Positions 29,514-35,880 of a stretch of DNA of 45,251 bases are shown in pieces. The position numbers were made by a program, and so were the translations under genes. Every line of letters begins with the position of its first letter. Position 1 is the stretch's first letter. This DNA comes from Marinobacterium sp. Lineage in GTDB: Bacteria; Pseudomonadota; Gammaproteobacteria; Pseudomonadales; Balneatricaceae. The stretch spans positions 1 to 45,251 of the forward strand of contig QKGH01000441.1 of the NCBI GenBank assembly GCA_003250495.1. The letters are read 5' to 3'. Below the pieces are notes generated by a model. That model searched no databases, was not told where the DNA came from, and saw nothing but the letters and a program-made list of their open reading frames with translations.

Positions 29514-31361
<1,848 letters not shown>

Positions 31362-31600: not shown

Positions 31601-31616
31601 TGGCACGAAGTTTGTA
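31601..31616 (+). promoter_or_regulatory. sigma-54 promoter of pchACXF
   Basis: TGGCACGAAGTTTGTA carries GG at 31602-31603 and GT at 31614-31615, exactly ten bases apart as the -24/-12 spacing requires. The -12 GC is replaced by GT, the only departure from the conserved core. Start of transcription is expected near 31627, about 150 bases before pchA. Confidence 0.8.
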
Positions 31617-31779: not shown

Positions 31780-33255
31780 ATGACAGAGACAAGCACTCCT
31801 TATCGGGAGCTGGACCTGCAACCCCTGGCAGGCCAGTGGCGCGCGGGCAGCGACCGCCGTCTCCTCGATGTCTTCGACCCCTTCAACGGTGAGCGTCTGC
31901 TGCAGCTGCAGATGGCCAACCGTGACGATCTCGACCAAGCCTTCAATGCCGCACGCGATGCCCAGGCTGCCTGGGCGGCGATGGGTCCCTCTGCGCGCGC
32001 CGAGGTGATGCTGAACGCGGTGAAGATCTTCGATCAGCGTCAGGATGAGATCATCGACTGGATCGTCCGCGAGTCGGGCAGTACCCGCCTGAAGGCCACC
32101 ATCGAGTGGGGCGCCGCGCGTGCGATCACGCTGGAAGCGGCGAGTCTGCCGAGCCGCGTGCACGGCCGCATCATCGCCTCCGATGTGCCGGGCAAAGAGA
32201 GCCGCGTTTACCGTGGCCCGCTGGGCGTGGTCGGCGTGATCAGCCCGTGGAACTTCCCGCTGCACCTGACCCAGCGCTCCGTTGCGCCGGCGCTGGCGCT
32301 CGGTAACGCCGTGGTGGTGAAACCGGCCAGCGATACCCCGGTCAGCGGCGGTCTGCTGTGCGCACGAATCTTCGAAGAGGCCGGTCTGCCGGCAGGGGTG
32401 TTGAGCGTCGTCGTGGGTGCGGGTTCCGAGATCGGCGATGCGTTCGTCGAGCATCCGGTGCCGTCACTGGTCTCCTTCACCGGTTCCACCCTGGTCGGTC
32501 GCAATATCGGCCGCATCGCCAGCGGCGGTGACTACCTGAAGCATGTGGCGCTGGAGCTGGGCGGTAACAGCCCGTTCGTGGTGCTGGCCGACGCCGATAT
32601 CGAACAGGCGGTCAATGCCGCGGTGGTGGGCAAGTTCCTACACCAGGGCCAGATCTGCATGGCGATCAACCGCATCATCGTCGAGAAGCCGGTGTACCAG
32701 GCGTTTACCGAGCGCTTCGTCGAGCGAGTCAAGGGTCTGGCCTACGGCGACCCGAAACTGGCTGAAACCGTGGTCGGTCCGGTGATCAATGCCCGCCAGC
32801 TGGAAGGGCTGCAGCAGAAGATCGCCAAGGCCAAGGCCGAGGGCGCCAAGGTGCTGCTCGAGGGCGAAGCCCAGGGCAACGTACTGCCGCCGCACGTGTT
32901 TGGTGATGTGACCGCCGACATGGAGATCTCCCGTGAAGAGATCTTCGGACCGCTGGTTGGTATCCAGTGCGCGGACGATGCCGAGCATGCGCTGGCGCTG
33001 GCCAACGATAGCGAATACGGCCTGTCCAGTGCGGTATTTACCGGCGATCTGGAGCGTGGTGCGCAGTTCGCCCAGCGTATCCGTGCCGGTATGACCCACG
33101 TGAACGATATTCCGGTGAACGACGAGGCGCATGCGCCGTTCGGCGGTGAGAAGAACTCCGGTATCGGTCGTTTCAACGGCGACTGGGCGATCGATGAGTT
33201 CACCACCGATCACTGGATCACGCTGCAGCGTACGCCGCGTCCCTATCCGTTCTGA
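31780..33255 (+). CDS. pchA: 4-hydroxybenzaldehyde dehydrogenase (aldehyde dehydrogenase family)
   Basis: A 491-residue NAD(P)+-dependent aldehyde dehydrogenase. The three catalytic residues are N158 in [10 protein letters not shown]259 in [10 protein letters not shown] and C293 in [11 protein letters not shown]. Place and order make it the enzyme that oxidises 4-hydroxybenzaldehyde, the product of the p-cresol flavocytochrome, to 4-hydroxybenzoate, as in the pchACXF cluster of Pseudomonas putida; a benzaldehyde or vanillin dehydrogenase would look much the same. ATG 31780 fits the family start; the frame runs on upstream to 31600 but through the sigma-54 promoter. First gene of the operon, 27 bases before pchC. 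Confidence 0.9.
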
Positions 33256-33282: not shown

Positions 33283-33609
33283 ATGCTTAAAACAATTAAA
33301 GGGCGTGCACTGCGCGGCGCGCTGATCTGTGCTGTCTCCTCTCTCGGGTTGGTTGCTACCGCTGCGCAGGCGGATGGCGACGGTAAATGGCGTGGCGGCG
33401 AGAACGTCTACGCCAAGGTGTGCAGTCACTGCCACGAAGCGGGCATCGGTCCCGTCATCAAGGGACGTCAGCTCCCGCCTGAGTACATTACGACCATCGC
33501 TCGTCACGGCTTCCGTGCCATGCCGGCGTTCCGTTCCTCCTTCATCGATGACGCTGCGTTGCAGTCTGTCGCTGAGTTCGTCAGCAACAGCGCTGCACCC
33601 AAGGAGTAA
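33283..33609 (+). CDS. pchC: p-cresol methylhydroxylase cytochrome c subunit
   Basis: A 108-residue c-type cytochrome. A Sec signal peptide (RGALICAVSSLGLVATAAQA, residues 11-30) is followed by haem motif CSHCH (C47, C50, H51) and the axial methionine M80 in FRAMPAFRS. It takes electrons from the PchF flavin and passes them to a soluble acceptor. ATG 33283 has GGAG upstream; TTG at 33271 is in frame but is the ribosome site itself. pchX follows after five bases. Confidence 0.93.
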   Translation: MLKTIKGRALRGALICAVSSLGLVATAAQADGDGKWRGGENVYAKVCSHCHEAGIGPVIKGRQLPPEYITTIARHGFRAMPAFRSSFIDDAALQSVAEFVSNSAAPKE

Positions 33610-33614
33610 CCATC

Positions 33615-34304
33615 ATGATGGATCACAAACGCCGTTTCTTTCTTAAAGGCGCGCTGGCGTCCGGTGCCGGCAGTGTCCTGCTCGGCGGCTCCGGCCTGGC
33701 CCAGGCGGCGCTGAACCTCGGCGCGACCGGTGCCGAAGCGGTACCGACCCTGGTCCTGGCCGCCAATGCGGCGGTGGAGGCCAGCTTCGCTGCCGGTGCC
33801 CGCGCGGCCCTGGCCAACGGGGCCCAGCTCGAGCTGCTCCGTAGCGATCGCGAGGCGAACCCGCTGGCACTGCTGCAGCAGGCCGCCGAGCGTGGCGAAC
33901 GCCTGCGTCTGATCGGTCTGGTCGACGATGCCAGCGGCGAGCTGCTGGTGGCCCAGGCCCGCCGTGCCGGTCTGCGCATGAGCTGGCTCGGTCAGCACAG
34001 CGCCGAAGCGGGGGTTAGCCGTCACCAGGTGATCAGCGCCGGTGCTGGCCAGAGTGCGGTACTGACGTTGGGCGAGCAGCTCAAGCAGGAAGCCGCCGGC
34101 TTTGCGCTGCAGGCGCAGCAGCCGTTCGCGGCCGCCCGCGATCTGGAGCTGACGGCGGCCTCCCAGGGTGCGGTCTCCGCGCGTTGGGCGGCCTACCTGG
34201 GCCATGCCCTGGTTGCCCCCCAGGCGCCGGTCGACGCGGCTGCACTGTCCGCCCATAGCGAGCGCCTCGAAGGTCGCTTTGTCTCTTTTGTAATCGAGGT
34301 TTGA
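33615..34304 (+). CDS. pchX: PchX-like twin-arginine-exported protein
   Basis: A 229-residue protein of unknown function, in the place of pchX between pchC and pchF. It begins HKRRFFLKGALASGAGSVLL, a good match to the twin-arginine signal (R6-R7, F9, L10, K11), with a likely cut after AQA at residue 31. The mature part of about 198 residues is Ala/Leu-rich, has no cysteines and no cofactor motif that I recognise. AAGGAG over the end of pchC is its ribosome site. Because PchF has no signal of its own, PchX may carry it across the membrane; that is inference. It could also be an assembly factor for the covalent flavin. Confidence 0.8.
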   Translation: MMDHKRRFFLKGALASGAGSVLLGGSGLAQAALNLGATGAEAVPTLVLAANAAVEASFAAGARAALANGAQLELLRSDREANPLALLQQAAERGERLRLIGLVDDASGELLVAQARRAGLRMSWLGQHSAEAGVSRHQVISAGAGQSAVLTLGEQLKQEAAGFALQAQQPFAAARDLELTAASQGAVSARWAAYLGHALVAPQAPVDAAALSAHSERLEGRFVSFVIEV

Positions 34305-34308
34305 AGCC

Positions 34309-35880
34309 ATGAGTCAACAAACCAATACCGTATTGCCCCAGGGCGTTACCGACGCCGAGTTCCAGGCGGCGCTGAAGAAGTTCCGTGCCCTGATGGGCGA
34401 AGAGAACGTCCTGGTCTCCGCCGACCAGCTGGTCTCCTACACCAAGATCATGATGCCGGGCGACGTGGAGCGTAACACGCCGTCTGCCGCGCTGACCGCT
34501 ACCAGCGTCGAGCAGGTGCAGGGCATCGTGAAGATCTGTAACGAGTACAAGATCCCGGTTTGGACCATCTCCACCGGTAACAACTTCGGGTACGGCAGTG
34601 CCGCACCGGGCCAGCGCGGCCAGGTGGTGCTGGACCTGAAGAAGATGAACAAGATCATCCATATCGATGCGGAGCTGGGTACCGCGCTGGTCGAGCCGGG
34701 CGTGACCTACCAGCAGCTGTACGATTACCTGCAGGAGAACAACATCCCGTTGATGCTGTCCTTCTCGGCACCGTCCGCTATCGCCGGTCCGCTGGGTAAC
34801 ACCATGGACCGTGGCGTGGGTTACACCCCCTACGGCGAGCACTTCCTGATGCAGTGCGGTATGGAGCTGGTACTGGCCAACGGCGAGATCTACCGCACCG
34901 GTATGGGCGGCGTCGAAGGCGACAAGGCCTGGCAGGTGTTCAAGTGGGGTTACGGCCCGACGCTGGACGGGATGTTCACCCAGGCCAACTACGGTATCTG
35001 CACCAAGCTGGGCTTCTGGCTGATGCCGAAACCGCCGGTGTCCAAGCCGATCGAGATCAAGTTCGAAGATGAGACCGATATCGCCGATATCGTCGAGTTC
35101 ATCCGTCCGCTGCGTATCGCCCAGGTGATCCCGAACGCCGTCGTTATCGCCGGTGTGATCTGGGAAGCGGCTACCTGCAACACCACCCGTGCGCAGTACA
35201 TCACCGAGCCGGGCGCCACGCCGGACCACGTGCTGAAGCAGATCCAGAAAGACAAGGATCTCGGGGCGTGGAACGTCTATGCCTGCCTGTACGGTACCCC
35301 GGAACAGGTGGAGGTGAACCTGAACATCGTCCGCGGCGCGCTGAAACAGCTCGGCAAAGGACGCCTGGTCACCGACGAGGAAGCGGCCGGCACCCAGCCG
35401 TTCGACTACCGCGCCAAGCTGATGACCGGCGTGCCGAACCTGCAGGAGTTTGGTCTGTACAACTGGCGTGGGGGTGGCGGTTCCATGTGGTTCGCACCGG
35501 TGAGCCAGGCCCGTGGCTCCGAGTGCGACAAGCAGTACGCCCTGGCCAAGGATATTCTGAACAAGCATGGCCTGGACTACGTCGGCGAGTTTATCGTCGG
35601 CTGGCGCGACATGCACCACGTCATCGACGTGCTGTATGACCGCACCAATGAGGAGGAGCGCAAGCGGGCAGAGGTCTGCTTCGGCGAGCTGCTGGACGAG
35701 TTCCAGAAACGCGGTTATGCCGTTTACCGCGTCAACACTCAGTTCCAGGAGCGCGTGGCACAGAGCTACGGCACCGTGAAGCGCCGGGTTGAACATGCGA
35801 TCAAGCGTGCCCTCGACCCGAACAACATCCTGTCACCGGGTAAATCCGGTATCGACCTGAAGAACGGCTTCGAGCTGTAA
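34309..35880 (+). CDS. pchF: p-cresol methylhydroxylase flavoprotein subunit (4-cresol dehydrogenase)
   Basis: A 523-residue FAD enzyme of the vanillyl-alcohol oxidase family that hydroxylates the methyl group of p-cresol with water, giving 4-hydroxybenzyl alcohol and then 4-hydroxybenzaldehyde. It aligns with P. putida PchF without gaps that shift numbering: Tyr384, the covalent FAD link, is in EFGLYNWRGGGGS; Tyr95 in FGYGSAAPG and Tyr473 in AVYRVNTQF, the phenol-binding tyrosines, are at the same numbers. The FAD domain has PSAIAGPLGNTMDRGVGYTPYGEHF. No signal peptide is present. It is the last gene of the operon, four bases after pchX, and is followed by a strong two-way terminator. Confidence 0.96.
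   Translation: MSQQTNTVLPQGVTDAEFQAALKKFRALMGEENVLVSADQLVSYTKIMMPGDVERNTPSAALTATSVEQVQGIVKICNEYKIPVWTISTGNNFGYGSAAPGQRGQVVLDLKKMNKIIHIDAELGTALVEPGVTYQQLYDYLQENNIPLMLSFSAPSAIAGPLGNTMDRGVGYTPYGEHFLMQCGMELVLANGEIYRTGMGGVEGDKAWQVFKWGYGPTLDGMFTQANYGICTKLGFWLMPKPPVSKPIEIKFEDETDIADIVEFIRPLRIAQVIPNAVVIAGVIWEAATCNTTRAQYITEPGATPDHVLKQIQKDKDLGAWNVYACLYGTPEQVEVNLNIVRGALKQLGKGRLVTDEEAAGTQPFDYRAKLMTGVPNLQEFGLYNWRGGGGSMWFAPVSQARGSECDKQYALAKDILNKHGLDYVGEFIVGWRDMHHVIDVLYDRTNEEERKRAEVCFGELLDEFQKRGYAVYRVNTQFQERVAQSYGTVKRRVEHAIKRALDPNNILSPGKSGIDLKNGFEL

Follow-up and report, generated by a model that had tools for sequence, protein, structure and literature searches.

Small proteins bearing a twin-arginine translocation (Tat) signal can escort enzymes that have no signal of their own, as does the caddie protein MelC1 for Streptomyces tyrosinase, to which it delivers copper. 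In Pseudomonas putida NCIMB 9866/9869, the gene pchX lies between pchC and pchF, which encode the cytochrome c and flavoprotein subunits of p-cresol methylhydroxylase (PCMH), and to our knowledge no role has been assigned to it. Here we deal with PchX, for which we take that gene to encode a possible homologue, as found in a stretch of 45,251 nt from Marinobacterium sp. (contig QKGH01000441.1; the whole stretch is hereafter called the window). A preliminary description of the window, made from the sequence alone, proposed that PchX carries the signal-less PchF through the Tat pathway, and the present follow-up is a computational and comparative analysis of the same window. Among described systems, the gamma subunit, or hitchhiker protein, of flavin adenine dinucleotide (FAD) glucose dehydrogenase is described as a requirement for the FAD subunit to fold and be secreted (PMC6719666; here and below, statements cited by PMC number refer to the excerpts consulted), and the periplasmic location of PchF itself is credited to Hopper (1985, as cited in PMC12724174). 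Overall, comparative genomics gives good support to the view that PchX serves PchF in the manner of a Tat hitchhiker escort, and we consider this reading very probable.

The three proteins of the window fit this division of labor. PchX begins with MMDHKRRFFLKG, its N-terminal letters being MMDHKRRFFLKGALASGAG; RRFFLK occupies residues 6–11 and a possible AQA cleavage site residues 29–31, which confirms at the sequence level the Tat signal that had been claimed. By a home-made rule, used rather than a trained predictor, Tat-like starts were scored for 79 of 79 PchX N-termini versus 293 of 15,800 sequences made by shuffling those residues, with a background of 324 passes among 8,846 other open reading frames (ORFs) of 100–330 amino acids. 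PchC starts with MLKTIKGRALRGALICAVSSLGLVATAAQADG, a Sec-type signal without twin arginines (RR), and the crystal chain 1dii_C aligns to it from residue 33, in agreement with the Sec signal ascribed to it earlier. PchF, beginning MSQQTNTVLPQGVTD, has no signal peptide, is matched by 1dii_A from residue 1 (E 3.9e-280), and falls into the domain families FAD_binding_4 and FAD-oxidase_C. The tyrosine given in the preliminary description as the site of flavin attachment, Tyr384, is present in the window PchF by alignment—a table in PMC7617285 names this residue for P. putida PchF—and the close match together with this covalent residue identifies the window protein, as far as sequence can tell, as the PCMH flavoprotein. 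The crystals 1dii, 1diq, and 1wve contain PchF and PchC, and PchX is not a lasting subunit of the solved enzyme, because no PDB chain is matched by it. The assembly of the window also contains a tatC gene.

Close relatives of the locus retain this arrangement. From a PchF scan of GTDB genomes, the best 80 of 190 loci (73–89% identical) were taken as the close set, and in 78 of them a PchX ORF lies directly 5' of PchF, in every case with twin arginines; the contigs of the two exceptions, L067 and L076, begin only 126 and 178 bases before PchF. Homologues lacking twin arginines, which the preliminary description had named as the finding that would speak against it, were thus absent from all 78 close loci that have upstream DNA. 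Of these PchX proteins, phmmer searches using nothing but the window PchX recovered 63, and 15, mainly of Comamonas, Malikia, and Vogesella types, were taken from the gap between pchC and pchF with the RR motif as an aid, their mature parts aligning with the others. The N-terminal pattern M-x(1-4)-RR-xx-[LIVM]-[KQ] occurs in 78 of 78, and Arg6 and Arg7 are two of the nine invariant columns of alignment A1 (59 of 79 PchX, window copy included). Over the same 77 loci, median identity to the window is 38% for PchX (31–61) and 79% for PchF (72–89), so that in these alignments the twin arginines are kept invariant while the remainder of PchX drifts. The distance from the PchX stop to the PchF start has a median of 16 nt (range −4 to 78). 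In Oceanimonas baumannii (L023, 7980–9569), the pchF frame is split into two ORFs in the assembly and pchX is intact.

PchX is not peculiar to p-cresol clusters and, judged by profile comparison, belongs to a larger family. A DNA-translated PchX search of plasmids gave no match at E ≤ 1e-5. A search of 398 Pseudomonadota genomes showed 9 with PchF relatives (E ≤ 1e-60) and 11 with a match to the A1 profile. Only G000 and G082, in which PchF is 78% identical or more, were matched along most of the profile; the other nine matches covered profile positions 1–66 at most, which is the signal part. Seven further PchF-bearing genomes, whose partners are too divergent for this profile to reach, gave no A1 match. 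The absence of PchX beside distant PchF relatives (31–49%), suggested by A1, was overturned by reading the loci: cytochrome-adjacent ones have a nearby small ORF with a Tat-like start or, in the case of L084, a flavoprotein that itself starts with a Tat-like signal, which may include a lipobox. The survey that followed these small proteins comprised 207 sources, namely the window, the 80 loci, 113 genome stretches at PchF-like places, and 13 plasmid regions (loci L081–L106 lie outside it), and small Tat-type neighbors were gathered by the home-made rule, after which profile comparison was applied to their mature parts. In this comparison, PchX pairs with group S3 at 99% and with S0c at 70% (E 4e-5), and further joins link S0c to S1 (96%) and S0b (95%), S0a to S1 (96%) and S2 (96%), and S1 to S2 (98%); cytochrome c and PchF-segment controls all remained below 2%, and A1 against A2, a second profile, gave 95.8% with signals included. 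PchX and the small Tat proteins are therefore likely to form one family joined through intermediates, the farthest groups being less certain.

Mature-part profiles find 149 ORFs of this family, of which 148 have RR and one (L152) has KR before the domain, a proportion that is partly circular because part of the family was gathered with the Tat rule. As the window PchX was itself used as a seed, it is the relatives that put the profile match to the test. Nine members were found by profile without Tat selection, and here again the adverse outcome of homologues without a twin-arginine-type start was not encountered, eight having RR and one KR. The remaining neighbor-scan candidates of small Tat type were set aside as mostly chance ORFs. 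The Sulfuricurvum plasmid pSULKU01 offers a named example: it encodes a cytochrome c and an FAD oxidoreductase together with a protein whose annotation includes a Tat signal (TIGR01409, above cut-off).

The distribution of partner genes and of Tat signals on the flavoprotein itself also speaks for an escort. The PchF-like set comprises 224 ORFs with more than 380 residues matched, 221 of them distinct (the identical pairs are L007/L029, L050/L201, and L053/L202), and a partner was defined as a family ORF on the same strand within 2.5 kb of PchF. In this set, 151 have a partner, 11 have their own Tat signal, and none has both. If PchX is an escort, then a client with its own Tat signal would need none, and this holds in 11 of 11 loci, in which no PchX-family ORF was found anywhere; the reasoning of the preliminary description, that relatives without PchX should bear their own signal, is upheld by these 11. 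A hydrophobic uncharged N-terminal stretch is missing in 150 of the 151 partner-linked PchF and present in 9 of the 11 with their own signal. On a quick tree, the own signals amount to two changes, each adjoining partner-bearing rows: one lies in a 12-row set (Shimodaira–Hasegawa approximate likelihood-ratio test, SH-aLRT, 98) that includes five partner and four Tat-ORF rows, and the other is L125, to which the partner-bearing L192 is the closest row (SH-aLRT 99), with the direction of change inferred, as label counts cannot separate gain from loss. Within these sequence comparisons, we regard this replacement argument as stronger than the link to cytochromes described below.

Three side observations concern this set. 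L201/L050 and L202/L053 are the same assemblies in two collections and are counted twice in the 224. The own-signal PchF of L110 and L114 begin RRGLIGA..GLASC, resembling a Tat lipoprotein signal, and the flavoprotein may be membrane-tethered in these cases. In L119, L130, L182, L183, and L184, and also in G831 and G723, two PchF-like flavoproteins apparently share a single PchX-family gene.

Specificity was also apparent at the level of whole genomes. Profile A2 was run on 199 genomes of one sphingomonad-rich family, at most 18 candidates being scored per genome, and gave 51 strong matches (E ≤ 1.3e-7) in 31 genomes, all within the 35 that have PchF; 49 of the 51 lie no more than 590 bp from a PchF relative. 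The finding of PchF-linked genes is expected, because part of A2 comes from these genomes, and the informative part is that no strong family gene occurs among the candidates scored in the 164 PchF-less genomes. Weaker A2 matches (E 4e-6 to 9e-4) are mostly longer frames of which mostly the first part is covered, as for other Tat substrates. The two unlinked strong genes are in G429 and G503, both of which hold PchF–cytochrome pairs without a linked partner (L142, L149, and L169). Four of the 35 genomes with PchF gave no strong match: G505, whose PchF has its own signal (L115), G416 and G423, which have no cytochrome there (L127 and L181), and G460, where the locus is at a contig edge (L124). 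The two unlinked genes themselves (G429:C10:14263-14604 and G503:C97:2920-3291, loci L233 and L234) have KR signals and lie beside a large ORF resembling ribosomal protein S1.

In raw counts, the family is also strongly associated with cytochromes. With a cytochrome scored nearby, 144 PchF-like ORFs have a partner, 9 their own signal, and 24 neither; with none scored nearby (a rule that missed the L064 cytochrome), the numbers are 7, 2, and 38, from which L067, L076, and one L124 gene, all cut by contig ends, were left out of Fisher's test. For cytochrome versus partner-or-own-signal, this test gave p 7e-17 (153/24/9/35), p 1e-16 on the 221 distinct sequences (150/24/9/35), and p 4e-5 on 76 dereplicated rows (32/16/5/23).

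Several points weigh against the escort role. A tree-corrected sign test was not significant (median p 0.625, curated 0.5) and is underpowered, only 9 supported independent tree pairs differing in cytochrome. Seven partner genes and two own-signal PchF have no scored cytochrome nearby. The 24 cytochrome-linked PchF with neither a profile-found partner nor their own signal include 10 with a small Tat-type ORF outside the profiles (L107, L108, L220, L221, L224, L227 with two, L126, L128, and L229), two with a divergent family gene (L138 and L146), three with an unlinked family gene elsewhere in the genome (L142, L149, and L169), and L190 and L191, where one partner stands for two flavoproteins about 9 kb apart; five second operon flavoproteins remain (L121, L225, L226, L124, and L125), and L209 and L135, with the cytochrome more than 1.1 kb off, remain doubtful. 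Direct pairing of PchX with S1 (14%), S0a (9%), S2 (1.6%), and S0b (0.2%) is weak, and 140 of the 149 family ORFs had been picks of the Tat rule. Furthermore, where the related flavocytochrome PinWV was studied by transposon insertion and gene deletion, the consulted part of the paper mentions no partner of this type, although 1,245 of 4,708 genes there had no mapped insertion (PMC12607616). Finally, the case for an escort rests on sequence comparison.

If PchX is an escort, PchF would fold and bind FAD in the cytoplasm and form a complex with the PchX precursor, whose Tat signal, seen in the sequence, would carry the complex through the Tat pore. PchC would travel separately and unfolded by Sec, with its heme added outside, c-type cytochromes in general being exported unfolded by Sec and gaining their heme there. 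In the periplasm, PchC would seat on PchF, the FAD–Tyr384 bond would close, and PchX would depart. The dehydrogenase branch of the vanillyl-alcohol oxidase (VAO)/PCMH flavoproteins would share this solution by means of fast-evolving small Tat proteins, and some flavoproteins would have dispensed with the escort by bearing a Tat signal themselves. The title of Kim et al. (1995) states that PchC is needed for the covalent FAD bond, and because the bond is thus tied to PchC, it is probably made outside the cytoplasm, FAD traveling non-covalently bound. The role of PchX as Tat carrier in the preliminary description is supported by comparative genomics, whereas covalent attachment of FAD in the cytoplasm is improbable. 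As a tentative extension, which we would call possible but doubtful, the PchX family might be a general escort for the cytochrome-linked VAO/PCMH branch and also a hand-over device, keeping the FAD of loaded PchF non-covalently bound while the pair passes through Tat, perhaps by occupying the PchC site or a place close to it, until PchC displaces it and triggers the covalent bond; if this were true, export quality control and cofactor attachment would form one relay.

What PchX consists of beyond its signal bears on the alternatives. The window PchX matches no Pfam and no NCBIfam family at E ≤ 1 and no PDB sequence; among the 59 PchX of A1, the commonest matches are Tat-signal models (TIGR02811 in 26, PF10518 in 19, and TIGR01409 in 14), and beyond these no Pfam or NCBIfam family occurs in more than 3. 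An AlphaFold2 model (predicted local distance difference test, pLDDT, 83.4; predicted template modeling score, pTM, 0.78) has alternating strands and helices, with low pLDDT around residues 16–38. Foldseek gave no match to this model at E ≤ 0.001, and VIA gave a top Z of 5.8 over 110 residues (root-mean-square deviation 3.8), with sugar-binding proteins among the weak matches; Z values below 8 are common between unrelated models, and we do not claim a new fold. In the PDB, profile A1 matches best the N-terminal 39 residues of a sulfatase (E 5.7e-4), and the best matches of A2 are to N-terminal parts of exported proteins, including the NapA signal (E 0.045) and MelC (E 0.075), these being mixed with unrelated ones and suggestive only. 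No cofactor motif was seen in PchX.

The folded domain is far larger than a signal carrier needs, which would suit a protein exported alone by Tat to serve as a periplasmic assembly or flavinylation factor, with PchF leaving by another, unnamed route. In addition, none of the 11 own-signal PchF has Tyr where the covalent bond would form, so that loss of PchX and loss of Tyr coincide. However, in the 151 partner-linked PchF, the Tyr384 column holds 87 Tyr, 47 other residues, and 17 gaps, and because of these 47 residues and 17 gaps the partner does not track the covalent bond; the tyrosine evidence is mixed and, on balance, argues against a flavinylation role. BpfA and BpfB of the bisphenol F enzyme, produced alone in Escherichia coli, are active with about 0.4 FAD per complex (PMC12724174). 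This alternative also leaves the exit of PchF unexplained. We therefore find such an assembly or flavinylation factor very improbable.

For the same BpfAB enzyme, export led by the cytochrome has been proposed (PMC12724174), so that PchF would be exported by the signal peptide of its partner cytochrome (PchC, or BpfB in that enzyme) and PchX would do something else. A hydrophobic stretch does precede CXXCH in 171 of 177 PchF-adjacent cytochromes, but RRx[FL] occurs 5' of CXXCH in just 17 of 177, and these cytochromes look Sec-exported. Because c-type cytochromes are threaded unfolded, with heme added outside, no cytochrome can draw a folded flavoprotein along with it; this route would also leave unexplained why there is a Tat partner and why it is missing beside own-signal PchF. 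The bpf cluster, moreover, has a small Tat-type ORF of its own between the cytochrome and hydrolase genes (L227, 6979–7548), of which the consulted part of PMC12724174 makes no mention. Cytochrome-led export is, in our judgment, highly improbable. It is extremely unlikely that PchX acts in the periplasm as an accessory to p-cresol binding or to electron transfer, bearing its Tat signal only incidentally and playing no part in export, since the likeness to sugar-binding proteins that would favor it has a Z in the range common for unrelated models, no cofactor motif is seen, and the complementarity with own Tat signals would become a coincidence.

The genes of the window on which the escort reading is based are collected in Table 1. 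Their order is regulator, aldehyde dehydrogenase, pchC, pchX, and pchF, the last four being co-directional with short gaps.

Table 1. Positions of the p-cresol genes and of the features of PchX and PchF in the window.
Feature	Coordinates	Strand	Basis
Sigma-54-type regulator (MobR-like), divergent	29514..31361	-	ORF reading
Aldehyde dehydrogenase gene, pchA-like, 5' of pchC	31783..33255	+	Start picked by eye
pchC, cytochrome c subunit, Sec-type signal at 33283-33372	33283..33609	+	Read from ATG at 33283
pchX, 229 amino acids, proposed Tat escort of PchF	33615..34304	+	ATG ORF
PchX Tat signal peptide, residues 1-31, possible cleavage after AQA	33615..33707	+	Sequence; low pLDDT ~16-38
Twin-arginine codons Arg6-Arg7	33630..33635	+	Invariant columns in aligned PchX
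Mature PchX, predicted mixed alpha/beta domain	33708..34301	+	AlphaFold2 secondary structure
pchF, flavoprotein subunit, 523 amino acids, no signal peptide, proposed client	34309..35880	+	Sequence and PDB match
Tyr384 codon, putative site of covalent FAD attachment, assigned from P. putida PchF	35458..35460	+	Alignment

The stretch separating the MobR-like regulator from the aldehyde dehydrogenase gene contains a sigma-54-type promoter-like site with one mismatch (31601–31616); sites with at most two mismatches number 32 in the window versus 23 expected, so that this observation is weak on its own. In Vogesella (L050, L053, and L071), a second small Tat-type protein is encoded about 1.55 kb 3' of pchF, with a four-cysteine pattern like that of a high-potential iron–sulfur protein, and may be an electron acceptor of the pch system. 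In Roseomonas (L232, 8022–8468), a pseudoazurin gene lies shortly 3' of the PchF–cytochrome pair, which fits a copper protein as electron acceptor.

If PchX is the escort of PchF, this would provide a function for pchX and an export route for a periplasmic flavoenzyme without a signal, differing from the printed proposal for a relative, the cytochrome's own signal (PMC12724174). Small hypothetical genes of many clusters for the catabolism of aromatics and lignin, such as those of pNL1, the bpf-type cluster of Sphingobium yanoikuyae SJTF8, and Roseomonas, would gain a function as well. As a practical hint, periplasmic expression of these enzymes may need either the escort or a Tat signal of their own. 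In the literature surveyed by title and listing, we found no description of the PchX family and no paper on the PchX gene; the hitchhiker kind of protein is already known, and it is this family that is undescribed there.

Among known systems, the resemblance to MelC in the profile comparison with A2 is confined to the signal part (positions 3–31, E 0.075). The gamma subunit of FAD glucose dehydrogenase from Burkholderia cepacia and its kin is, like PchX, a small cofactor-less protein with a Tat signal, encoded together with a signal-less FAD enzyme and a c-type cytochrome subunit (PMC6719666). However, the gamma subunit consists of five alpha-helices and stays in the complex (PMC6719666), whereas PchX is modeled as mixed alpha/beta and is not in the solved PCMH, and the client is a glucose–methanol–choline (GMC) enzyme in the one case and a VAO/PCMH enzyme in the other. 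PchX is not a member of this known family, as neither the family model of Gluconate 2-dehydrogenase subunit 3/FAD glucose dehydrogenase gamma subunit, nor the all-helical fold, nor a GMC client was found for it. In E. coli PaoABC and HybOC, a signal-less cofactor subunit likewise crosses Tat bound to a signal-bearing partner, but this partner is a redox subunit of the enzyme (PMC4273604), whereas PchX has no cofactor motif that could be seen and is absent from the enzyme. Three features of a Tat hitchhiker pair are present at this locus at the level of sequence: a Tat signal on the partner, a client without a signal, and genes that lie together.
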